In this document: positions 4,630-16,939 of the stretch, piece by piece
Layout: each line of letters starts with the position of its first letter
Numbering within the stretch: position 1 is the first letter of the stretch
Source of the DNA: Methanosarcinales archaeon
GTDB lineage: Archaea > Halobacteriota > Methanosarcinia > Methanosarcinales > Methanocomedenaceae
Assembly: GCA_021108405.1 (NCBI GenBank)
Contig: JAIOQW010000226.1
Span: forward strand, 1 to 49,299
Direction: 5' to 3'
DNA: 49,299 nucleotides
Made by a program: the position numbers and the translations under genes
Notes under the pieces: generated by a model
Seen by the model: only the letters and a program-made list of their open reading frames with translations
What the model was told of the DNA's origin: nothing
Databases searched by the model: none

Positions 4630-7106
4630 TCCTCATTACTTATCTTGTTGTTATCCACAACTACACGTGCAACAGCCATTACTTTATCTTTATTTTTTAC
4701 ATTCATGATCTTCACACCCTGGGTATTACGTCCCTGAATCCTGATATCAGATACAGGTACACGAATAATAATTCCTCCTGAAGTGGTCGCCATCAACTCG
4801 TCTGCTTCATTGATAGCCTTCACATCAACAACCAGACCGTTGCGTATACTGGATATTATGGTAATAACACCCTGACCTCCCCTGTTCATCTTCCTGTATT
4901 CCCCGAATTGCGTCCGTTTTCCAAATCCGTTCTCAGTTACAGTTAAAAGAGTTGCATCATCCCGTACAATATCCATTCCCACCACATAATCATCACCAAT
5001 AAGCCTGATACCTCTAACTCCACGAGCACCTCTTCCTGTAGCACGTACATCTGCCTCACTGAACCGAATAGCTTTACCATACCTGCTCCCGATGATTATA
5101 TCTTTATATCCATCTGTTAATTTGACGATCTTGAGTTCGTCTCCTTCATCAAGGGTTATAGCTATGATCCCGCTTCGTCTCGGGTTGCTGAAAGCTGACA
5201 GAACGGTCTTTTTCACCACACCACATCCGGTCGCCATGATCAGGTACTGGTCATTCTTGAATACCTTTACAGGTATCTGGGCAGTGATATTCTCATCACT
5301 GTCCACTTCGATCAAATTAATAATTGCTTTACCACGGCTTTGCCTTGAAGCATCGGGGATCGAATAGACTTTAAGCCAGTATACCCGGCCCTTATCGGTA
5401 AAGAACAGTATATAGTCATGTGTGGACGCTACAAACAGATCAACTACAAAATCTGTTTCCTTAGTATCCATGCCTATTACACCTCTACCTCCCCTGCGTT
5501 GCTGTTTATATGTATCAACAGGCAGACGTTTGATATATCCGCTATTGGAAATTGTAACAACCACATCTTCAACAGGTATCAGGTCCTCATCTTCCATATC
5601 GGTATTACCATCAATGATCTCGGTTCGTCTATCATCGCCATATCGATCCTTGATATCTGTGATCTCCTGTTTGATAATACTAAAAATCTTATTCTTATCA
5701 CCCAGTACTTCCTGTAGCCACCTGATCGTCTCCATTAATTCTTTGTGCTCGTTATCGATCTTCTCCCGCTCCAGACCGGTAAGCCTCTGAAGTCTCATAT
5801 CCAGAATTGCCTTTGCCTGCTCCTGCGTGAGATCAAGTTCGGTTATTAGTCTGGTTTTTGCCTCATCTGTTGTCTGGCTTTGGCGTATCAAAGCAATGAC
5901 CTGGTCAATATGGTCCAGGGCTATCTGGAGACCTTCTAAGATATGTGCGCGTTTTTTGGCTTTTTCCATCTCAAATATACTGCGGCGCGTTACTACTTCC
6001 ACACGGTGGTCTATGAAATGCCTGATAATATCTTTCAAGCCCAGTATCATAGGTTGACCATCAACCAATGCCAGATTTATGATCCCAAAACTGGATTCCA
6101 TCTGGGTATGCCTGAATAACTGGTTCAGTACAACATCTGCATTAGTACCCCGGCTAAGTTCTATCACAACTCTTATACCATTTCTGTCAGACTCGTCTCT
6201 CAAGTCTGTTATACCTGAGATCTTTTTTTCTTTTACTAAATTTGCTATGTTCTCGATAAGTTTAGCTTTATTTACCTGGTAGGGCATCTCATTGATAATG
6301 ATGGTTTCTTTATTTTTATGTTGCTCAACAGTTGTTTTGGCACGGATCTTAATAATGCCACGCCCGGATTCATATGCGCGGTGTATCCCACTTTTGCCAT
6401 AAATGTAGGCACCTGTCGGAAAATCGGGTCCATGTACCACACTCATCAATTCCTGGGTGGTAACTTCCGGGTTATCTATGGTCATTGCCACAGCATCTGC
6501 GATCTCACGCAGGTTGTGCGGAGGCATATTTGTCGACATACCTACTGCAATACCTGTACTGCCATTGATAAGCAGATTGGGAACTTTCGCAGGCAGAATA
6601 ATAGGTTCTTTGAGACTCCCGTCATAGTTAGGTATAAAATCAACAGTATCTTTATCAAGATCGTCCAGGATCTCCTGCGCTAAATTCCACAAACGTATCT
6701 CGGTATAACGCATGGCTGCAGCAGCATCGCCGTCAATGGACCCAAAATTACCCTGACCATCCGCCAGTGGATAGCGCATACTAAAATCCTGTGCCATCCG
6801 TACCATTGTATCATAGATCGCAGCATCACCATGGGGGTGATATTTACCCATGACATCTCCTACTATCCTGGCAGATTTTTTATAGGGCTTGTCATGGGTC
6901 ATGCCCTGTTCCTTCATGCCAAATAGAATGCGTCTGTGAACTGGTTTTAGACCGTCACGCACATCAGGCAGTGCCCTGCCCACGATCACGCTCATGGCAT
7001 AATTAATATAGGATGTCTTCATTTCATCTTCTATATTGACAGGGATGATCTTTTCGACTTGTTCATCCGGGTCCGGTTGATTATTGTCTGTCACGGTATC
7101 GTTCAA
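4599..7106 (-). CDS. gyrA: DNA gyrase subunit A
   Basis: At 835 aa this is a full-length bacterial-type GyrA, the DNA-cleaving subunit that introduces negative supercoils with GyrB. Visible are the N-terminal [40 protein letters not shown], the active-site region [12 protein letters not shown] with catalytic Tyr, the GyrA box QRRGGRGV, and repeated C-terminal beta-pinwheel blades. Archaea with gyrase obtained it from bacteria. The start is TTG (7106) with GGAG about 12 nt upstream; a GTG five codons in is the alternative. The last nine residues (KILPSVGFS) and the stop are encoded by a palindromic repeat module, so the native C-terminus has probably been replaced. gyrB is not in the window. 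Confidence 0.97.
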
Positions 7107-7200
7107 CTTAAGTAATAACTCCTGTATATTGTAGATATGAACATTTGTGATCTAAATGACTTCAGATACAATAACCCTTATGGAATAAACTTTTTTAATA

Positions 7201-7262
7201 GTATATAAAGTATAACTTAATATATCGAAAATGTTCACTCCGTTCACATTTTCGAATCTTCG
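7201..7262. repeat. Modular palindromic repeat, copy upstream of gyrA
   Basis: This has the ATATCAAG-type module in decayed form (agtataacttaatatatc) joined by gaaa to the TGTTCACTCCGTTCACA module, then a fragment of the gaatcttcg linker. Read on the minus strand it gives CTTTATATACTATT about 95 nt before gyrA, so it may also carry a promoter TATA box for that gene. Confidence 0.65.
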
Positions 7263-7666
7263 TCTCTACAAACTGCAATACAGTTTCTATCTTTCCTGTA
7301 CATAGCCTTCCAAAGATTATTATCAGCTGAGTGCCAGGTTCCTTATATTTGCGCTCAAGGAAATCAAGCTCTCGAATACGGTTTACAAATTACATATTTA
7401 CGATTATAATAATCGTAATTATGATCTATAAATATGTCGTTGAGCCCCTGGGGTGAACACACCGCCCCATCTCCCGGTTTCTGCTGCCCATCACATTACC
7501 CCCCTATCTTTGAGATGTTCGAAGAAGCATTTGAGCTTTATATTGACAATCTCAGGAAATCCCATAAGATTAAAATGGATGAAGAGGCAAAACTTTAAAG
7601 TGATAGCAAATACCCATACTTAATTAAACAACAAGTGTTTCTATATTATAAGCAAGATGTGATAAC
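7263..7666. other. Gene-free stretch with a small ORF remnant
   Basis: No full gene is visible. A GC-rich patch at about 7440-7505 (tgctgcccatcacat) shares wording with 13125-13140. A 27-codon frame at 7515-7598 on the plus strand (begins MFEEAFELYIDNLRKS) looks like the tail of a small helical protein, possibly an antitoxin, but is too short to classify. 7391-7420 holds an AT-rich inverted repeat around cgattataataatcg. Confidence 0.4.
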
Positions 7667-7948
7667 ATGTCCACAGTGCTACATAAATTATCGAAAGAAA
7701 TGGGTATCAAAGAAAGTGAACTTGTCACCCAGAGTGTAAAAGCATACATCCGGTCTGAACTGAGTAAAATTGAGTCACAACTTTATGTACTCTATCATAA
7801 GTATAAAATAAAATCTGTCCAAGAACTGGAGCATGCTATAGAGAAGGGAGAAGTTGTAGAATCAGATGTGCTCGATGATCTAACCAAAATAGATTATCTT
7901 GAATCCGAGAAAACAAAAATGATGAACTTTTTTAGGGATGTTAGATGA
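7667..7948 (+). CDS. Putative antitoxin, partner of TumE-type toxin
   Basis: The 93-aa helical protein has an N-terminal stretch (MSTVLHKLSKEMGIKESELVTQSVKAYIRS) of the kind seen in ribbon-helix-helix or DNA-binding antitoxins, then a charged segment. Its TGA overlaps the ATG of the next gene (ATGA), typical of antitoxin-toxin co-translation. Known relation: DUF6516/TumE-type toxins are encoded next to small antitoxins in this order. The role is inferred from position; DNA-binding would imply autoregulation. No classic RHH motif can be proven by eye. Confidence 0.65.
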   Translation: MSTVLHKLSKEMGIKESELVTQSVKAYIRSELSKIESQLYVLYHKYKIKSVQELEHAIEKGEVVESDVLDDLTKIDYLESEKTKMMNFFRDVR

Positions 7949-8307
7949 TTGATTCGCTGTTTCTAAAACTTGCCAATATCGCAGAAACAGAATTCGCTGA
8001 TGTTACGACATGTTGCGAAATAAAAGAAGGAAAGTTAAGACTATTTATTGTGGATGAGACATTCCTGGATATATGGTTCTCAAGACAGCTTAAGGGAAGA
8101 TATGCATACCATTGGGAGAGGAGGCATTTGGATAATACTATCTACCGTTGGGATAATGCAAAACATGAGGTATGGAAGAATGTCAAGACATTCCCACATC
8201 ATTTTCATAATAGAATTGATAATAATGTATCTGAAAGTTTCCTGCCACAAGACCCGGAAAAGGCATTAAGGTTTATTTTAGGTTTTGTTAGGGAGATTAT
8301 CTATTAA
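7945..8307 (+). CDS. TumE-like (DUF6516) toxin-antitoxin protein
   Basis: This 120-aa protein matches the DUF6516 family that databases call TumE-type toxin. Typical features are the N-terminal EGKLRLFIVDETFLDIWFSR, an aromatic core with YAYHWER, the Trp-rich RWDNAKHEVW, the histidine-rich FPHHFHNRI, and a C-terminal DPEKALRFILGFVREII. The family is proposed to include RNA-targeting toxins; the histidine pair is the likely active region, which is my inference. It overlaps the upstream antitoxin-like gene by 4 nt. Both look intact. The pair sits next to repeat elements on both sides, consistent with an accessory locus. Confidence 0.75.
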   Translation: MIDSLFLKLANIAETEFADVTTCCEIKEGKLRLFIVDETFLDIWFSRQLKGRYAYHWERRHLDNTIYRWDNAKHEVWKNVKTFPHHFHNRIDNNVSESFLPQDPEKALRFILGFVREIIY

Positions 8308-8324
8308 GATGAGAATTAATTTTA

Positions 8325-8483
8325 GTATATCAGGTATAACTTGATATATCGAAAATGCTCACTCTGTTCACATTTTCTAACCTTCGGCTCTTTTAAGAGC
8401 ATCATGCGAAGATTCTACGAATCTTTTAATCTTCAACTTCTTCGAAGCTTCAGTCAAGAAAATCCGACCAAAGGGAGGATTTT
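8325..8483. repeat. Modular palindromic repeat, longest copy
   Basis: All six module types occur in one 160-bp block, in order: GTATATCAGGTATAACTTGA, TGCTCACTCTGTTCACA, GGCTCTTTTAAGAGC, GAAGATTCTACGAATCTTT, ACTTCTTCGAAGCTTC and AAAATCCGACCAAAGG with its mirror. Order matches the gyrA copy (4495-4629) with one extra module in front. It lies 17 nt after the TumE-like gene. Confidence 0.85.
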
Positions 8484-8698
8484 ATTCTCATCATAAATCT
8501 GTGCTTATCTACGGTTCGAAACTCGTACGAATCCACACGGTTGTCTACCACCCTGCCATCCAGGTGGGCTGCGGGGACAGGATAAAGTGCAGATGCTGTG
8601 GTGGCGGGAGAGTGATGGGAAGAAAAGGTTCCCATACAGGTGTATAGATGGGACGGAACTACAAAAAGCTTTTATCTATTTGGTTCTAAGAGTATATC
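8484..8698. other. Gene-free stretch with a GC-rich intergenic repeat
   Basis: No gene is supported. 8493-8512 has the aaatctgtgcttatctacggtt wording of a scattered repeat also seen at 40-62, 155-175 and 12663-12680. 8519-8625 is GC-rich and similar to 12537-12640 (both have acgaatccaca then gggctgcg and a gcgggagag or gcaggagag end), suggesting two diverged copies of one element. Confidence 0.4.
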
Positions 8699-8869
8699 AT
8701 GAGTTCAGAAATTGAAAAAGAATATAGCATGTCATTTGATGGGCTTTCAAGGAAATTAGAAACAGGAGCTTCTATTCCGGAAGAAGATGACTGGATGGAA
8801 TGGGAAGCTGCCGGGAATATGCTGAAAATTTGGAAAAAAGCTGCCAGAGAGACTGGTATAAGTACATAG
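8699..8869 (+). CDS. Small acidic protein of unknown function
   Basis: A 56-aa frame beginning with ATG reads MSSEIEKEYSMSFDGLSRK and continues through an acidic, Trp-containing middle (EEDDWMEWEA). I do not recognise it. A TATA-like tttatcta lies about 28 nt before the ATG with no clear ribosome site, which would suit a leaderless transcript. Downstream frames to about 9020 contain protein-like snippets in different frames (SSIVDSIISMDSDALGFFID, then LKILKDPKKFKRLTDIADVF), so this may be the front of a frameshifted gene. Confidence 0.4.
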   Translation: MSSEIEKEYSMSFDGLSRKLETGASIPEEDDWMEWEAAGNMLKIWKKAARETGIST

Positions 8870-9093
8870 GACAGTTAAAATCTTGAAGGAATCAAGTATT
8901 GTAGACTCCATTATATCGATGGATTCCGATGCTTTAGGGTTTTTTATAGATTGAAGATTTTAAAAGACCCGAAAAAATTTAAAAGACTCACTGACATAGC
9001 CGATGTATTTAAGTAGACAACATACATACATTGACCTATGTTCCTGTCAATAGATGAAAAACAGTTCAAGTTCTGGAAGTTGAGGGGATTAGC

Positions 9094-9843
9094 ATGACAC
9101 TGAATTTTGCTAAGACTGTACGGAAAATGATGGGATGGTGCCCGAATGTAACTCAAGCGAGATACAGATCGATGCAGCCTGTCGATTTTATAAATCCTTC
9201 ACAAACACCATCCAGCAGATCAAACGTTGAAAATGTTCAATTTAAAAATGTAATGTTCCCTGCATATAATTTCTTGTTATCTATTTGCTTTTCGACAAGT
9301 TTTTTTTTGATCTTGCAATTTTCCATACATCTGGACTATGCAATCTCAATTCCAATCATTGTGGCAATATATTCCTTCTTATATTTAGTTGTGGTCAAAA
9401 CATTTCAGGCAAGTGTTTCTATCGATGAAAACGGTGTGCATTTAAAGTCCTTTTTGTTCAAGAATATTACATTGGATTACAACGACATCAGATCAGTCAC
9501 GCCAAAAAAACCAATGAAACCAATAAAATTTTCAACTAAAATCAAGATACTTTTAGCAATCCCACTAACTTTTATTATTGCATTGTTCACTTATTCAATG
9601 GTGGCATATGGGGAGTGGCAATGGATCCTGGCAGTTATTCCATTGCTGCCGGGATCCTTGTTTTTGAAATATAGGTACGACAGGAGATATCATGACATGG
9701 ATGTACAATTGTCTATCCAATCCGAAAACAAAAACCGTTATATAAGATGGTATGAACTCACGTCCTATTATTCAGTTATAACAGACGTGATGACTGCATC
9801 TCGAATACAGGCTGCTATTGAACATTACAGGGAGGTACAGTGA
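9094..9843 (+). CDS. DUF1673-like membrane protein (array copy 1)
   Basis: The 249-aa protein starts with the family hallmark K-x-M-M-G-W-C-P-N (residues 9-18), known from DUF1673 proteins of Methanosarcina, followed by a polar linker and four predicted membrane helices (about 50-72, 76-96, 148-168, 173-190). A cytoplasmic-type tail follows (QSENKNRYIRWYELTSYY). Function is unknown for the family. It heads a tandem run of related genes spaced by 1 to a few nt or overlapping. Copy 4 (11180-11450) retains nearly identical ends of this gene. The start has GAGG 9 nt upstream. Confidence 0.8.
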   Translation: MTLNFAKTVRKMMGWCPNVTQARYRSMQPVDFINPSQTPSSRSNVENVQFKNVMFPAYNFLLSICFSTSFFLILQFSIHLDYAISIPIIVAIYSFLYLVVVKTFQASVSIDENGVHLKSFLFKNITLDYNDIRSVTPKKPMKPIKFSTKIKILLAIPLTFIIALFTYSMVAYGEWQWILAVIPLLPGSLFLKYRYDRRYHDMDVQLSIQSENKNRYIRWYELTSYYSVITDVMTASRIQAAIEHYREVQ

Positions 9844-9844
9844 G

Positions 9845-10585
9845 ATGGTCTCTTTTAAAAGTGTTAAAAGAATGATGGGGTGGTGCCCGCAAAAGGATTT
9901 CAGGTTTATACAAGCTGGGGATACAAAGCACAGAACAGGCATACATGATTTTTGTGACGGATATGGCGACACGCAAAAAAAGCGTCGGGAAAAGGTGCTT
10001 GTGGACGTCCCTGTTCTGGATTCAGGCATGATACGAATTTTACTTCCGGTCTGGATTGTAGGATTAATGTTAATGACCATTATCAATCATTATTCTATCC
10101 TTGATTTTTTTATTATCTTCGCATACTACCTTACCCTCTTACTAGTGGTTCTTCAAAATCGCACAACAGTAGAACTTACACATGGTACAATAATCATCCA
10201 CAGGCCTTTTCTCCGGTCTATTGTGATACAAAAAAATGATGTTATTAAAACTCAAATCATAAAGAATTTATCCCATACAACGCGCTGGATTTTACGCATT
10301 GTTGAATTAATTATTCTGGTCTTTCTGGCCACCCATAATATCAATGCTATATACATAAATATAGAACAATCCCTTACGATGCTGGTCACTATTGTTAATA
10401 TTATCTCATTCCCCCTCATAACTGTGATGACCGCCGTTTTATTCTATAATAACGAGATAAGGATGCATTATCAGGTTTCATTGCATGTGGCAACAAATAA
10501 GCGTCAATTCAATTTTTATGTTGATAATCCGGATGAATTTTCAGTGATGTTGCAGCACACAGGGGAGGTTACACTCGATGGCTGA
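9845..10585 (+). CDS. DUF1673-like membrane protein (array copy 2)
   Basis: The 246-aa protein begins MVSFKSVKRMMGWCPQKD, sharing the GWCP motif with copies 1, 3, 4 and 5. A longer frame is open from 9818, but a GGAGGT box and alignment with the other copies favour ATG at 9845. Membrane helices lie at about 62-80, 84-102, 146-165 and 180-205. Outside the N-terminal motif it is only weakly similar to copy 1, so the array is old or fast evolving. It overlaps the next copy by 8 nt. Function unknown. Confidence 0.75.
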   Translation: MVSFKSVKRMMGWCPQKDFRFIQAGDTKHRTGIHDFCDGYGDTQKKRREKVLVDVPVLDSGMIRILLPVWIVGLMLMTIINHYSILDFFIIFAYYLTLLLVVLQNRTTVELTHGTIIIHRPFLRSIVIQKNDVIKTQIIKNLSHTTRWILRIVELIILVFLATHNINAIYINIEQSLTMLVTIVNIISFPLITVMTAVLFYNNEIRMHYQVSLHVATNKRQFNFYVDNPDEFSVMLQHTGEVTLDG

Positions 10586-11177
10586 ATTTGTTGATTATGT
10601 CAAAAAACTGATGGGATGGTGCCCCAAAGTGGGCGCAATTGAGACAAAAAAAGCAGTGCAATTCGATGACATTGTGGTAAATGCATCTGATAAAGGCAGG
10701 GAATTAACCCACATAACTATGAAATGGTGGAATAAATATCATAACTTGATTTTACTAATATCAATTCTTGCTATTCTCACTGACATTAATATGATGATTT
10801 CGTGGCAAGGAAGGAACATAGGTATTTTTCTGGCTGGACTGTTTTTAGGGATATTGATAAGCACGGTTACATGGAAAACAACCTGGCATTCTTTAGACAG
10901 GATATCGACACATACACCCCATAAAACTGTTATGAAACCTTCAAAAAAACGGATGCTTGTTTTTTGCATCATTATTTTTCTATATGTGGCAGCAATTACA
11001 TATTTTATGTCCATTTATGACTGGAAAAAAGTTACTGCATTTCTTTTAGGCCTTGGGACATCCGTTTTGTGGTTATCGTACTTTCAGATTCTATATTGGG
11101 AGTGGAAAAACAGGAAGACATTGATAAAGTCCGGGTATTTCAATCGAATTTTTGTGGCATCAAATTGGAGATATTAA
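10578..11177 (+). CDS. DUF1673-like membrane protein (array copy 3)
   Basis: The 199-aa protein begins MAEFVDYVKKLMGWCPKVG and has helices near 53-72, 76-96, 126-146 and 150-172. It is about 50 aa shorter than copies 1 and 2 and ends shortly after the fourth helix (KSGYFNRIFVASNWRY), so it lacks most of the tail domain; it may be truncated. GGGGAGGT precedes the ATG by 8 nt. Function unknown. Confidence 0.7.
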   Translation: MAEFVDYVKKLMGWCPKVGAIETKKAVQFDDIVVNASDKGRELTHITMKWWNKYHNLILLISILAILTDINMMISWQGRNIGIFLAGLFLGILISTVTWKTTWHSLDRISTHTPHKTVMKPSKKRMLVFCIIIFLYVAAITYFMSIYDWKKVTAFLLGLGTSVLWLSYFQILYWEWKNRKTLIKSGYFNRIFVASNWRY

Positions 11178-11179
11178 GA

Positions 11180-11450
11180 ATGATAACAGTCATTGAGCAT
11201 ATTAAAAGAGTGATGGGGTGGTGCCCCAATGTAACTCAAGCAAGGTACAGATCGATGCAGCCTGTCGATTTTATAAATCCTTCACAAACATCATCTGGCA
11301 GATCAAACATTAAAATTGTCCATCCAATCAGAAAACAAAAATCGGCATACTAGATGGCATGAAGTTACATCCAATTATTCAATTGTCACGGATGAGATGA
11401 CTGTATTCCGAATACAGGATGCTATTGAATATTATAGGGAAGCAAAGTGA
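11180..11450 (+). pseudogene. DUF1673 array copy 4, internally deleted and frameshifted
   Basis: The first 50 codons (KRVMGWCPNVTQARYRSMQP and on to PSQTSSGRSN) are almost identical to copy 1. The sequence then jumps, around 11315, to the last 45 codons of copy 1 in a different frame (LSIQSENKNRHTRWHEV through AIEYYREAK) and ends at the TGA at 11448. About 160 codons carrying all four membrane helices are missing. The open frame stops at a TAG at 11351. It is a clear deletion derivative made after copy 1 was duplicated. Confidence 0.85.
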
Positions 11451-11454
11451 AATA

Positions 11455-11702
11455 GTGTTTTTTGAAAATGTTAAAAGAATGATGGGCTGGTGTCCATAAA
11501 AAAAGTAGTCTATAATCGTGAGGATGTAATTTTTTCATATGATGCACTTTGCACCAGCATTGCTGCTTACAATGAAAAAAATAAGTATATGGATCTTCCA
11601 GTCCAGATGTTTGACTGGTGCATATTTGTTATTATGTTCGGCTTTATTGATCTATTATTAGTTGGCATCCAGAGGTCGGAATATGTTCCTTTATCCACGT
11701 AA
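11455..11702 (+). pseudogene. DUF1673 array copy 5, start and frame lost
   Basis: Alignment with the start of copy 2 shows ATGGTC replaced by ATAGTG, so the original start is gone, though a GTG remains. Residues VFFENVKRMMGWCP follow and hit a TAA at once. A +1 shift continues as KKVVYNREDVIFSYDAL and into a membrane helix (MFDWCIFVIMFGFIDLLLVGI) before stopping at 11702. The junction copy 4 to copy 5 mirrors the junction copy 1 to copy 2, showing the block was duplicated. Confidence 0.7.
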
Positions 11703-11821: not shown

Positions 11822-12052
11822 ATGGCTCATAAAACATTAACTATTTCAGAAGAAGCTTACAAAAGCCTTGTTCAGCTAAAAAAAGAGGGGGAAAGCTTTA
11901 CTGCCCTTATAAATCGTATAGCAGAAATCGTCAGAAAAAAGCCGTTAAAAGAATTTGCCGGAAGATTGAAAGACGATGAATTTAAAAAAGCGGCCATTGA
12001 AATAAGGTCCAGTGGAACTGATATTTCCCGTTTAGAGCGTGCAAAACTATGA
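11822..12052 (+). CDS. vapB: VapB-type antitoxin
   Basis: The 76-aa protein (MAHKTLTISEEAYKSLVQLK, then ESFTALINRI) matches the archaeal VapB/DUF217 antitoxins that bind and neutralise the PIN toxin and repress their own operon. The N-terminal beta strand plus helix fits DNA binding, and the C-terminal part would wrap the toxin. Its stop overlaps the toxin start (ATGA at 12049). A TATA-like tttaaatacacg lies about 30 nt upstream, suiting a leaderless mRNA. Confidence 0.9.
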   Translation: MAHKTLTISEEAYKSLVQLKKEGESFTALINRIAEIVRKKPLKEFAGRLKDDEFKKAAIEIRSSGTDISRLERAKL

Positions 12053-12432
12053 CAATACTGGATACCGATTATCTGGTTGCTCTTCTTAGAGGTGATGCAG
12101 ATGCAGCCGCTTATGCTGATAAGATCAAAAACCCAAAAACTACCATCATCAATGCTTTCGAACTCTATTACGGGGCAGACCGTTCTACAAAACCCGATAA
12201 ATCCCACATAGAAGTAAATTCTTTACTGGGGTCTATGGATATACTTAGATTTGAAATGCCCGCTGTACTTACATCTGCCAAAATCCAGGCTGAACTAATG
12301 AATGCCGGCAATCCTGTAAATATCCTTGATGTTCTGATTGCAGGTATTGTAATGGTAAATAACGAAGAGTTTCTGACAAGAAATGTCAATCATTTCAACA
12401 GGATCAAAGGCTTGAACTGGAAAGAATGGTAA
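12049..12432 (+). CDS. vapC: VapC-type PIN-domain ribonuclease toxin
   Basis: The 127-aa PIN-domain protein keeps the acidic active-site residues in order: D in ILDTDYLVALL (residues 4-6), E in NAFELYYGA near 39, D in NILDVLIAG near 92, and the C-terminal N/D region FLTRNVNHFNRIKGL. VapC toxins cleave tRNA or rRNA and are held inactive by VapB. The pair looks intact and functional, unlike the neighbouring DUF1673 remnants. Confidence 0.92.
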   Translation: MTILDTDYLVALLRGDADAAAYADKIKNPKTTIINAFELYYGADRSTKPDKSHIEVNSLLGSMDILRFEMPAVLTSAKIQAELMNAGNPVNILDVLIAGIVMVNNEEFLTRNVNHFNRIKGLNWKEW

Positions 12433-12789
12433 CAGTGGTGATGAAGAATTTGCACCGAATAATTAGTGCAACCGCATATGCGCATATATTATTTATCAAC
12501 AATTAGAGGATGGTACATCACGTTCCATGTGGTTTAAAACTTACACGAATCCACAGGGCCGGCTGCTGCCCCGACGGGCTGCGAGTGGGAGGGCACAATG
12601 CAAAGAAGTAGGGCGGCAGGAGAGCATAAGAAGGGGTGAGGGGCTGGACAGCATTTTAATACGAACCGCAGATAGACGCAAATTGAAAGTTGTCGTTAAG
12701 TGTTTCACCGCGAAGGGCGCAAAGATCGCAAAGATAATGTTGCTTTAACTTTGCGTTCTTTGCTGTGCAGAATTTTATATAAATTATAT

Positions 12790-12985
12790 GTAACTATTCA
12801 GCTACCCCAAAGGTAGGATGCCGATAACGAAAAGCCGTTTATTTTCACTTGTGCTCATTCACTATATATTTTATCATACTGATTCTATTGACATTGATTT
12901 CATCGAGATTCAACAAATATATGTCATTAAATAATACAGGACTATTTATCCCACCGATAACGTTTATGCATGGCTGAATAGTTAC
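12790..12985. mobile_element. IS66-like MITE, 196 bp
   Basis: The ends are perfect 13-bp inverted repeats GTAACTATTCAGC / GCTGAATAGTTAC. Immediately outside them is an 8-bp direct repeat AATTATAT (12782-12789 and 12986-12993), a target-site duplication. Terminal GTAA and 8-bp duplications are the known marks of the IS66 family. The interior has no ORF, and CCGATAACG occurs near both ends in direct orientation. It would need a transposase in trans. Confidence 0.8.
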
Positions 12986-13412
12986 AATTATATTTAATAG
13001 CCATGGCGGCACCCCCACCGCACACCACTTCCCGACTCACGCTCTGCGCATGGGCACCCATACCCGGTCCGCAGCGCCATTATCCATGTGCTTGACGGTA
13101 ATCCAGCCGCCTATACAGCACCGCTGCCCATCACATCACCTCAACTCCTGAGCTGCATGGTGTTGGGGACTGCTTTTGCTGCAATTGCCCCCTCAAAGAA
13201 CCAGCAACATGTTTACCGGTAACGTTGCCCACCAGTGCTTTGCTTTTGTTCTTGGCCCTATCGATGTATTCTAGGTTCGCTCTTATGAACTGTAACGAAA
13301 TAACTTAAATAATTTCATCCATGTGGATTAATAAAGTAAATCTATTCAATTCTTTCAATTTATCGCAATAGCGAAAACTATTTATTAATGTAATAATAGA
13401 TTATTATTTATG

Positions 13413-13442
13413 TATTCAATTGAATAATTGATTTAAACAATT
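13413..13442. promoter_or_regulatory. Palindromic operator-like site before the wHTH operon
   Basis: TATTCAATTGAATA (13413-13426) is a perfect 14-bp palindrome, followed directly by a second inverted repeat AATTGATTTAAACAATT (13426-13442). Both lie 24-53 nt before the ATG of the winged-HTH gene, where archaeal TATA boxes lie, so a repressor binding here would block transcription. That the wHTH protein is the ligand is inference. Confidence 0.55.
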
Positions 13443-13465: not shown

Positions 13466-13699
13466 ATGATTGAAATGAATAATCAAGAAAGGAAAATTAT
13501 AAAAGCACTTAACTCCTTGGGAAAGAAAACTTACACCAGTAAAATTGCAAATGAAGCAAAACTATCTTCAGGAACAGCAAGTAAGTATCTTATGGCTTTA
13601 AAAATTAAAGGCTTAGTAACAAAAGATTCATCGCAACCTCCTCATATTTATTGGGAATTAACTGATAGTAAAGAAATTGAAGAAATATTGCAATCTTGA
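13466..13699 (+). CDS. Winged helix-turn-helix regulator
   Basis: The 77-aa protein is a compact winged HTH: helices around ERKIIKALNSL and YTSKIANEAKL, recognition helix SSGTASKYLMALKIKGLV, then a wing VTKDSSQPPHIYWELT. This layout is that of MarR/TrmB-like and Rok-like DNA-binding domains without a sensor domain. AGAGG lies about 8 nt before the ATG. It overlaps the next frame by 23 nt and is the first gene of a five-gene AT-rich operon, so it is probably the autoregulator acting on the palindromes just upstream. Confidence 0.8.
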   Translation: MIEMNNQERKIIKALNSLGKKTYTSKIANEAKLSSGTASKYLMALKIKGLVTKDSSQPPHIYWELTDSKEIEEILQS

Positions 13700-14138
13700 T
13701 TTAAAAATTCCAGACGAAATGTTAATTGAAGAAGTTACACCAAAATTGTTGAAAATAACTGATACTTTAATAGAGAATATCGAAGATGAGGCGATAAGTA
13801 GAGAAACATTGGATGAGTTAGTTAAAACACTCTTAGATGACGACGTTTATCTTTCTGAATTTGCGAATAAATTAAGTCCGAAAGAGCTTTCAGTTATTTA
13901 TATTTCTAGAAATTTAATCAACGAACTTTGGGGGAATTTAGCTACAGATGCTTCATTTGGAATGGAATTTTTTAAAGATTCTCAACATTTTAAGAATTTC
14001 AAACTCAACTTAAGCTATTATATTAAATTATCATTAGAAGATCAAGATAATGAAGCTATCACAAAATTATATGACGCAATATCATCATATTTTAAATTAG
14101 TAGTAGAACTTATGCAATTAGGCGAAAAGGAGATTTAA
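13677..14138 (+). CDS. Unknown helical protein in AT-rich operon
   Basis: I do not recognise this 153-aa protein. It is acidic, appears all-helical (for example ISRETLDELVKTLLDDD and AITKLYDAISSYFKLVVELM), and has no cysteines after the start, no signal peptide and no membrane segment. The start given is a TTG inside the wHTH gene; an in-frame ATG at 13719 is an alternative, and neither has a strong ribosome site. Only 3 nt separate it from the PRTase-like gene. Its placement between a regulator and two pyrimidine-type enzymes suggests a regulator partner or an adaptor, which is a guess. Confidence 0.6.
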   Translation: MKKYCNLDLKIPDEMLIEEVTPKLLKITDTLIENIEDEAISRETLDELVKTLLDDDVYLSEFANKLSPKELSVIYISRNLINELWGNLATDASFGMEFFKDSQHFKNFKLNLSYYIKLSLEDQDNEAITKLYDAISSYFKLVVELMQLGEKEI

Positions 14139-14141
14139 TTA

Positions 14142-14792
14142 ATGACTACTTCATCAGTTCGTTGGGAACTTTGGAAGGATGGAAAAGAAATTTTTATAAA
14201 AAGAGGCTCTATAAAGAGCAGTATCCGAGGATTTAAATCTGGAATATATGATAATTACTATATTGATTTCGATATTATAACTAGTGATCCTTTACAAGCT
14301 AAAAATGTAGTGGAACAATTAACTTATAAAATTAATGACATTAAAACAAAACAAAGAATAGATTATTTGGGATTTTTAGAGAAAAGAATAAAAGGAACAA
14401 TAGGAGCTTTACAGGCATCTTTAGCAATTTCTGTTATGACTGGAATACCACATATCATTATAAGACTGAGTAAAGAACTTGACTTTGATAGAATCAAAAT
14501 CCCAAATCGGTCTAGTTTAACTAGAAATTCACAATTATCAGGATTAAATGTAGTTCTAATTACAGATCATATTACAACAGGCAATGAAATAATAAAATCA
14601 GTAGATACAATAAGAAATAACGGCGGAACAGTTAGTGATGTAATAACTTATACTGTTAGACTGGATAAACTCAATCATAAAAAATTCGAAGACAGGAATT
14701 TAGAATTGCATAGTATTTACAAAATTCCAGATGATATCCCATTCGAATATATTGAAAAGATTGAAGGAAATAAATTGTCAATAAATATTTAA
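14142..14792 (+). CDS. Orotate phosphoribosyltransferase-like protein
   Basis: The 216-aa protein has a type I PRTase fold signature. GFKSGIYDNYYIDFD (about 30-44) matches the orotate-PRTase hood motif, and VVLITDHITTGNEII (137-151) is the PRPP-binding loop. Known PyrE enzymes join orotate to PRPP giving OMP. Two departures are visible: the usual acidic pair in the PRPP loop (E-D) reads T-D-H here, and the catalytic flexible-loop region is longer (RLSKELDFDRIKIPNRSS). It may be a divergent PyrE or a PRTase of other specificity. Its own downstream partner is an OMP-decarboxylase-like gene, two genes on. Codon use is more AT-rich than in the core genes. Confidence 0.75.
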   Translation: MTTSSVRWELWKDGKEIFIKRGSIKSSIRGFKSGIYDNYYIDFDIITSDPLQAKNVVEQLTYKINDIKTKQRIDYLGFLEKRIKGTIGALQASLAISVMTGIPHIIIRLSKELDFDRIKIPNRSSLTRNSQLSGLNVVLITDHITTGNEIIKSVDTIRNNGGTVSDVITYTVRLDKLNHKKFEDRNLELHSIYKIPDDIPFEYIEKIEGNKLSINI

Positions 14793-14817
14793 CAGGAATT
14801 CTCATGGAGAAATTACT

Positions 14818-15564
14818 TTGGCTAATACAAGGAATGACATTGCACAAAACGAAATAGAATGGAATGTTGTTTTTTCAGAGAAGTCTCGCAACCATACCAT
14901 CTCAATAAAATGGAACGAAATTTCAAAATTGGCAAAATGGCCATGGGAAAAAGAATTTCATTCAATTTCATTTGACAGCCAATCACCAATTAATAGCCAA
15001 AGGATTCGATTTATGGAAGGTGAAAATGATCTTTCTGATGATGTAGTGTTGCCAATCAAATTGGATACTCTTTCAAGTAGTACAACAGATTCAAGTATTC
15101 CAATTAATCTACAAGAGTTGACTACAAAAATAAAATTTGATTTATTTTCAAAAAAAAATATTATTTCCGAATGTAGATTTAAAGAAGGGAGAAGCCAACG
15201 GAAACGTTTCGGTGAGTGGTGGTTTGAACCTTTTCATTTTAATACAAAACTTAAAGCTTCAAGTATTCACTTTACATTACATTTACCTGAATTAAATTGG
15301 TGGAAAAGATGGTTATTCAATTTATTCAAAATTACTGAACGAAAATATTATGATGTTATTTGGATTCCATATTCAAGTAAATATACGGTTAACGTTAATA
15401 AAAAAGGTGAAGTTTCATTAACTATTCCAGAAAAAGATTTATCACCAGATAGCGAAATATGGTATATTCTGCCAAAATTCAATCTAAAGGGAAGTCTAAT
15501 TCGCTTAATAGGATTGATAAGTATAGGTGTAGCAGGAAGTTATATTGCATATTTATTACTATAG
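14818..15564 (+). CDS. C-terminally membrane-anchored protein of unknown function
   Basis: The 248-aa protein is unrecognised. It looks beta-rich and Trp-rich (WPWEKEF, FGEWWFEPFHF, LNWWKRWLFN) and ends with one hydrophobic segment (about 226-248, LIRLIGLISIGVAGSYIAYLLL) with no residues after it, so it is probably tail-anchored with its body in the cytoplasm. There is no signal peptide. The start is TTG with a GGAGA box about 8 nt upstream; the nearby ATG at 14804 is out of frame. It is placed between two pyrimidine-type enzymes with 20-25 nt gaps, suggesting they form one unit that may work at the membrane. Confidence 0.65.
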   Translation: MANTRNDIAQNEIEWNVVFSEKSRNHTISIKWNEISKLAKWPWEKEFHSISFDSQSPINSQRIRFMEGENDLSDDVVLPIKLDTLSSSTTDSSIPINLQELTTKIKFDLFSKKNIISECRFKEGRSQRKRFGEWWFEPFHFNTKLKASSIHFTLHLPELNWWKRWLFNLFKITERKYYDVIWIPYSSKYTVNVNKKGEVSLTIPEKDLSPDSEIWYILPKFNLKGSLIRLIGLISIGVAGSYIAYLLL

Positions 15565-15584
15565 TATAAGAAGGATGTGAAAAA

Positions 15585-16343
15585 TTGGATCTTTTTAATC
15601 TTAAATATGGAATAATTCCTGCTTGTGATGTCAAACTACTGGATGATTTAGAAGATCTAGTAAAGTCAACTTGTAATATTAAAGGAATCGTAGGTTATAA
15701 AGTAGGTGCTATTTTAGGACTCAAATATGGTTTACCTGCTATAGTTGAAACAATATCAACTTACACAAATCTGCCAATTATATATGACCACCAAAAATTC
15801 GGAACTGATATTCCTGATATTTGTGGAGGGGATATGCTTGAAGTGCTTAAAGAAGCAGGTATTAATATCGTAATAATATTTCCACAGGCGGGTCCAGATA
15901 CTTTAAAAGCTGCGATTGTTGGTTCTATTGACCCTAAATTGAAAGATACTGTTAAAGGATGCTACAAATTTGGATTATCACCAATTGTAGGCGGAGAAAT
16001 GACGCATAATAAATATATTGAAAGTGATGGTGGATATTTAACAAATGAAGCACCTGAGAGGATGTATTTAGATGCTGCTAAACTTGGAGTAGAATATTTT
16101 GTAGTGCCTGGAACAAAAGTAGAAAAAATGAAGAAATATCGTTTAATGTTATCAAAAGCATCAAAGAATCCAAAATTTCTTTTTCCAGGTATTGGACGTG
16201 ACTATCAAGGTGGTGATATAATTGAAGCTTTCAATGCAGTTAAACCTTTTTCCAGTTATGCAATTGTTGGAAGAGCAATTTATGCTGCAGACGATATTAA
16301 AGAATCAACGGAAAGATTATGTGAAGTCATACGAAAGTTCTAA
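15585..16343 (+). CDS. Orotidine 5'-phosphate decarboxylase-like protein
   Basis: The 252-aa protein is a TIM barrel of the OMP-decarboxylase/HUMPS group: PACDVK at strand 1, GYKVGA near 38 at strand 2, YDHQKFGTDIPD at 67-78, and the phosphate-binding end LFPGIGRDYQGGD plus AIVGRAIY. Canonical OMP decarboxylase has D-x-K-x-x-D; here it reads D-H-Q-K-F-G-T-D, with one extra residue in each gap, a variant also known in some annotated decarboxylases. It probably makes UMP from OMP, but the variant means another barrel reaction is possible. The TTG start has AAGGA about 10 nt upstream. It is the last gene of the operon. Confidence 0.75.
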   Translation: MDLFNLKYGIIPACDVKLLDDLEDLVKSTCNIKGIVGYKVGAILGLKYGLPAIVETISTYTNLPIIYDHQKFGTDIPDICGGDMLEVLKEAGINIVIIFPQAGPDTLKAAIVGSIDPKLKDTVKGCYKFGLSPIVGGEMTHNKYIESDGGYLTNEAPERMYLDAAKLGVEYFVVPGTKVEKMKKYRLMLSKASKNPKFLFPGIGRDYQGGDIIEAFNAVKPFSSYAIVGRAIYAADDIKESTERLCEVIRKF

Positions 16344-16750: not shown

Positions 16751-16939
16751 TCAGGACAAAACCAATGGAGATATCAGGGCATAAATTCAGATTTGTTTAG
16801 CTCAGTTTTATTTATTAACCACGAAGGGCACAGAGGCAATAAATGAAACCATAAACTTTATCCTTTAATATAATCCATATCACTGTACAGTTAGTAAAAT
16901 TAAGTCCAAGAACAAAACATCCAATACTATGTGGTAAAC

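Follow-up and report, generated by a model that had tools for sequence, protein, structure and literature searches.

Phosphoribosyltransferase (PRTase) folds with altered catalytic loops act as ligand sensors in PurR, PyrR and GfcR, and PurR and GfcR each combine a DNA-binding domain and a PRT domain in a single polypeptide. In retrons of type III-A, a PRTase and a winged-helix protein jointly form the accessory effector module (PMC12548924). In Ter-type stress systems, PRTases are proposed to make a nucleotide, according to work cited in PMC5512222.

The locus described here is located in a window of 49,299 nucleotides, the whole stretch of DNA that was analysed. Between positions 13466 and 16343, five compact, co-oriented open reading frames (ORFs) were confirmed, preceded by a short palindrome:

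13413-13426, no strand: perfect palindrome of 14 bp, TATTCAATTGAATA, before gene 1, a possible operator
13466-13699, plus strand: gene 1, winged-helix DNA-binding protein of 77 aa (HTH_5, 1.7e-05, above the cut-off)
13677-14138, plus strand: gene 2, all-helical protein matching no known family, 153 aa from a TTG start, with the motif WxNxATDASF
14142-14792, plus strand: gene 3, PRTase resembling orotate phosphoribosyltransferase (OPRT) (TIGR00336 pyrE, 1.8e-10, below the cut-off)
14818-15564, plus strand: gene 4, 248-aa protein matching no known family, with a single C-terminal transmembrane segment (from hydropathy and homologues)
15585-16343, plus strand: gene 5, orotidine 5'-phosphate decarboxylase (OMPDC) of the DHQKxGTDIP type (PF00215, 6.8e-11)

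A 23-nt overlap followed by gaps of 3, 25 and 20 nt reproduces the tight packing described in the sequence-only reading, and the AT-richness that it remarked on is borne out for the window copy, with 30.0% GC in the cassette vs 39.3% in the remainder of the window. The TTG starts that it listed hold in part. TTG is the earliest possible start codon of genes 2, 4 and 5, and the homologues of gene 5 start at the equivalent residue, but for gene 2 the ATG at 13719 is as likely as the TTG at 13677, so the overlap between genes 1 and 2 is uncertain.

With gene 5 as the query, 394 genomes of the phylum were searched, and the surroundings of its relatives were then read. Many relatives are situated within one family of another class, and in two Methanophagales (ANME-1) genomes, on contigs publicly named JAPWVK010000092.1 and JAFNKG010000006.1, the whole unit recurs in identical order with likewise tight spacing:

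G418, contig C92 (locus L040), 6011-8761, plus strand: cassette copy with the same gene order
G333, contig C111 (locus L041), 6216-3476, minus strand: cassette copy with the same gene order

Beyond these two and the window genome, the five-gene order was not found among the 394 genomes. Identities of the G418 and G333 copies to the window are 61/58% for the OMPDC, 39/35% for the PRTase, 31/37% for the helical protein and 22/22% for the membrane protein. Across the 394 genomes, the PRTase profile yields E-values below 1e-100 in the same three genomes only, with the next matches at 1e-10, and the membrane-protein profile finds real matches there only; an extra match in G309 proved on inspection to be a PCNA-like gene and was rejected as chance. 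The helical profile matches 2 of the 51 Methanophagales genomes, both of them cassette carriers, and when 84,980 species genomes were scanned with the PRTase alignment, in a pattern-limited search, the two named Methanophagales contigs were the only matches. At all three loci the PRTase is accompanied by the helical gene, the membrane gene and the OMPDC, and the proposed association of the helical and membrane genes with both enzymes thus withstands the comparison. Because the identical order recurs in two genomes of another class, the unit exceeds chance, and the five-gene module is well supported as an inherited unit; the known loci are three, all from metagenome-assembled genomes (MAGs), so co-inheritance rests on few events. 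Between G418 and G333, the four testable genes are under purifying selection (dN/dS <1), the NG86 values being about 0.10 for the OMPDC, 0.18 for the PRTase, 0.37 for the membrane protein and 0.40 for the helical protein. Low GC was rejected as a hallmark of the cassette: the G418 copy has 36.4% vs 41% in its flanks, and low GC is not intrinsic to the cassette because the G333 copy, at 39.1%, equals its flanks. No match to the PRTase, membrane protein or OMPDC was found in a plasmid collection, and profiles of the PRTase and of the helical and membrane proteins picked up no relative in viral contigs. Searches of the open-access literature gave no account of this operon; the five-gene cassette is apparently undescribed.

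The PRTase finds its best matches among OPRT models, including OPRTs of the PDB, and appears to keep an OPRT-like N-terminal motif, SGxxxxYYxDF. Where PyrE has its N-terminal motif of the SGxxSxYxxD type, the window copy reads FKSGIYDNYYIDF, and the relatives carry the variants FRVGFEESYYMDF and LRRGGKSPHYSDF. Against TIGR00336, gene 3 reaches 40.9 bits (36.7 bits in the genome scan), below the cut-off of 106.8. Furthermore, the PPi loop is altered to EKxxxGTxG, the catalytic loop to RLxKE followed by KIP, and the PRPP motif TDHxTxG (TDH-x-T-(T/G)-G) replaces (E/D)DxxTxG, each in all three copies; the acidic pair of PyrE, (E/D)-D-x-x-T-x-G, is found in none of them. The altered motifs reported earlier are therefore real and conserved. 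In the PRTase tree, the three cassette copies group together (100/99), and a long stem (1.73) separates them from the other sampled PRTases. Because the altered loops are conserved in all three copies, a functional but changed PRTase fits better than decay. The protein may be catalytically dead.

Compared with a PyrE-PyrF pair, the cassette likewise unites enzyme families of consecutive steps in one operon, with an OMPDC that keeps its catalytic residues. It differs in that three loops of its PRTase are altered and the protein scores under the pyrE cut-off, in two additional conserved genes matching no known family and a regulator, in being extra to the pyrE/pyrF-type genes of the hosts, and in a patchy distribution. 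In PurR and GfcR, an HTH or winged-helix function is similarly tied to the PRT fold; however, the cassette carries the two functions on separate genes (13466-13699 and 14142-14792), and its operon also holds the OMPDC enzyme and the membrane protein. As in retron type III-A, a PRTase is paired with a winged-helix protein, but the cassette PRTase is nearer to OPRT models (1.8e-10), with weak matches to the PADLOC model PRTase_III-A (E-values of 0.0011 and 0.0059), and the cassette also has an OMPDC and a membrane protein. No retron reverse transcriptase was seen adjoining the unit when the nearest genes were scanned with Pfam and the ORF list was inspected. The Ter-type systems, as cited in PMC5512222, share with the cassette a PRTase-bearing accessory module proposed for nucleotide making in conflict or stress, whereas the cassette uses an OMPDC instead, and the Ter-type PRTase model is absent among the Pfam matches of the cassette PRTase. 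No Ter partner genes (TerD/TerB/TerC) were noticed among the neighbours. Membership in the retron III-A or Ter systems is not supported. The closest analogies are the PRTase/winged-helix effectors of retron type III-A (PMC12548924) and the stress PRTase systems of PMC5512222 with their proposed nucleotide making.

Gene 5 scores 42.9 bits against PF00215 (cut-off of 27), and its catalytic residues K39, D68, K71 and D75 are conserved, together with the phosphate-side VGR. In all members, D-H-Q-K-x-G-(T/S/N)-D-I-P replaces D-x-K-x-x-D-I-P, with the Lys and both Asp retained and two extra residues. The motif had been described as altered, which is correct for the spacing, two residues wider, but the catalytic residues are kept and ANME-1 PyrF is of the same type. 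Because this motif is common to ANME-1 PyrF and to the PyrF of a phage-like cluster with PyrE-like and PyrD-like genes, gene 5 is probably a real, working OMPDC of the ANME-1 PyrF lineage. Its relatives in Methanophagales share 48-67% identity, and in several ANME-1 genera the DHQK type is the only PyrF-resembling PF00215 gene; the other PF00215 matches in ANME-1, proteins of 390-450 aa, would be fused or related HUMPS-family enzymes. In the OMPDC tree, the cassette copies cluster with those of the Methanophagales genus g81 that neighbour UbiD (100/98), whereas the ANME-1 copies that are likely housekeeping fall outside this clade; G333 has both kinds. The g81 copies (L036-L039), the closest OMPDC relatives at 65-67% identity to the window, adjoin a UbiD-family decarboxylase, with no other cassette genes. 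The phage-like cluster lies at 4579-6684 of contig L131 (IMGVR_UViG_3300033143_006101, 252,876 bp), where a PyrE-like gene, a PyrD-like gene and a PyrF of the DHQK type stand side by side as a late pyrimidine pathway carried by a virus.

The hosts possess pyrimidine genes of their own. The window genome contains a canonical PyrF beside haem-biosynthesis genes (L062; 2.5e-48) and a separate PyrE above the cut-off (L072), and G418 an adjacent PyrE-PyrF pair on C184. In G333, C132 carries a further PyrF of the DHQK type, and C100 an OPRT-like gene below the pyrE cut-off. Since pyrE- and pyrF-type genes lie outside the cassette in all three genomes, the cassette is extra to them in each, and the suggestion of a new unit, for which a host with its own pyrE and pyrF had been anticipated, survives this comparison. 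The host genomes are draft MAGs, in which claims of absence are soft and claims of presence are not. Kinship and gene content suggest a Methanosarcinales-like, possibly ANME-2, archaeon as the host of the window. Two further OPRT-like genes were observed. In the window genome (G000, C51; L122, 6502-8135), a PRTase-GNAT fusion adjoins a second OPRT-like gene near seeming type I restriction-modification genes, and in G418 (C123; L124, 6263-7886), the gene immediately upstream of an OPRT-like gene, in the same orientation, encodes a protein with a TIR domain (CAP12/Pycsar-effector-like, Pfam 5e-09).

The winged-helix gene has a homologue in G418 (L040, 6011-6232; 35% identity over 60 aa), and in G333 the N-terminal part of the gene is degenerate. 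Gene 1 is likely the autoregulator of the operon. The 14-bp palindrome of the window is equalled in 8.9% of dinucleotide shuffles, and an 18-bp perfect palindrome at the G418 copy in 0.85%. As putative operators, both are weakly suggestive of autoregulation by the winged-helix protein, with which they would fit.

For gene 2, no convincing family was found in Pfam, PADLOC, NCBIfam or PDB families, and for gene 4 Pfam gave no match to the window protein; searches of PDB sequences with both proteins returned nothing significant. Homologues of gene 2 are present in L040 and L041, and those of gene 4 hold the equivalent position in both loci, with weak but significant likeness (pairwise BLASTP E-values of 2e-06 and 0.006 against the ANME-1 copies). 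Structure prediction, which had been recommended, gave a confident or matched fold for neither protein: the AlphaFold model of gene 2 is all-helical (pLDDT of 72), with no significant match in a fold search, and the model of gene 4 is poor (pLDDT of 47), with fold matches too poor to interpret. The transmembrane segment of gene 4 is located at about residues 226-248, and the hydropathy peak is C-terminal in all three copies. Among the genes compared across all three copies, gene 4 evolves fastest, as might be expected of a component that senses or faces a target.

At its borders, the unit interrupts the synteny of related genomes. In G024, from the genus of the window, the right-hand neighbour of the unit has a counterpart of 94% identity, similarity ends at window position 16919, and a different gene, glutamine-amidotransferase-like by inspection, lies beyond the breakpoint. 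On the left of the G418 copy, the neighbouring gene (QueC by inspection) is followed by a different gene in the congener G461; similarity to both congeners ends just short of the end of this neighbour, and the contig of congener G390 ends at the position of the border. On the right, homology to a congener picks up again at L040 8807, within a native OMPDC-like gene (8807-9518). In G418 this gene lacks its 5' part, which a longer relative in G461 (L133, 1451-2119) appears to have. This sixth gene was rejected as a member, being native to the genus and merely abutting the border. Because congener homology stops beside the unit in the window genome and G418, the unit is best described as a laterally acquired accessory cassette, sporadic in two archaeal classes, and synteny loss is the best-supported signal of mobility. 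The defence-type and mobile surroundings pointed out in the sequence-only reading are partly upheld: a VapBC pair lies at 11822-12432, and the cassette neighbourhoods contain toxin-antitoxin and transposase genes, but none of them is a clear defence island, and the cassette does not sit among established defence genes at the examined loci. Elsewhere in the window, tandem DUF1673-family genes at 9094-11501 carry repeated 5' segments (direct repeats of 112 and 191 nt) and look recently duplicated, and a small gene pair at 7667-8307 resembles by eye a TumE-type (DUF6516) toxin-antitoxin, its second gene weakly matching PADLOC PDC-M44B. The segment at 12440-13300 is GC-rich (55% at 13000-13300) and has no long ORF; short pieces of it are found again on other contigs of the window genome, suggesting repeat remnants.

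We tentatively favour, as a possibility still short of even confidence, an auxiliary, self-regulated and membrane-linked module that makes or senses pyrimidine nucleotides in stress or defence. The winged-helix protein would repress the operon from the AT-rich palindromes of the promoter. On release, the OMPDC, probably active on OMP, and the altered PRTase would act on a pyrimidine base or nucleotide, while the C-terminally anchored protein, with the helical protein as adaptor, would hold the enzyme pair at the membrane and gate it. The output would be a local pyrimidine nucleotide change (UMP, an analogue, or consumption of PRPP/OMP), serving a response to stress or viruses and not the housekeeping supply of UMP. 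A bolder version is rather doubtful: a stress or antiviral system of a new kind in archaea, tied to the membrane and passed between ANME-1 and another class of methane-cycling archaea. In it, a repurposed OPRT-fold protein and an OMPDC would produce or use up a pyrimidine nucleotide on infection, under the control of two orphan proteins and of a winged-helix protein that represses itself. Beyond the generic winged-helix and PRTase folds, none of the five genes matches a known defence family, and with no clear defence island around them, the specific defence function raised earlier is not supported.

Alternatively, the cassette may be a transferred and regulated pyrE-pyrF pair that boosts UMP, with the two helpers scaffolding the enzymes at the membrane. 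The apparently fully functional OMPDC, its relative in the phage-like PyrE-PyrD-like-PyrF cluster, and the SGxxxxYYxDF motif and OPRT matches of the PRTase speak for this account. It is unlikely all the same, as the PRTase is far under the pyrE cut-off with its PPi loop, catalytic loop and PRPP motif altered in every copy, all three hosts already have pyrE/pyrF-type genes, and the operon contains no other pyrimidine gene while two unrelated genes matching no known family are conserved alongside. The plain transferred pyr cluster, offered earlier as the simpler explanation, is likewise weakened because the PRTase is divergent, but may still hold. By analogy with PurR and GfcR, a non-catalytic PRTase could instead partner the winged-helix protein as a split sensor of PRPP or nucleotide, controlling the OMPDC and the membrane protein. 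The shared operon, the conserved motif changes and the precedent of PurR, PyrR and GfcR as ligand sensors agree with such a sensor, which is improbable given that the DNA-binding and PRT domains are on separate genes with the helical gene between them, that the G333 winged-helix gene is degenerate although its PRTase is intact, and that the orotate-side motif is partly kept. Chance neighbours or a decaying remnant with no common function, to which the strong AT-richness of the window copy only and the degenerate G333 gene might point, are scarcely credible: three independent assemblies share an identical, compactly spaced order, and four of the genes are under purifying selection (dN/dS of 0.1-0.4).

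With three divergent copies and altered motifs in the PRTase, both the auxiliary pyrimidine module that we tentatively favour and the metabolic account can be put to the test. The cassette, which moves from one class of uncultured archaea to another, links the chemistry of late pyrimidine synthesis with two protein families that have no known relatives. If it is a defence or signalling module, it would be, to our knowledge, the first OPRT/OMPDC pair so used; if it is metabolic, it would represent a mobile, regulated and membrane-linked UMP unit.
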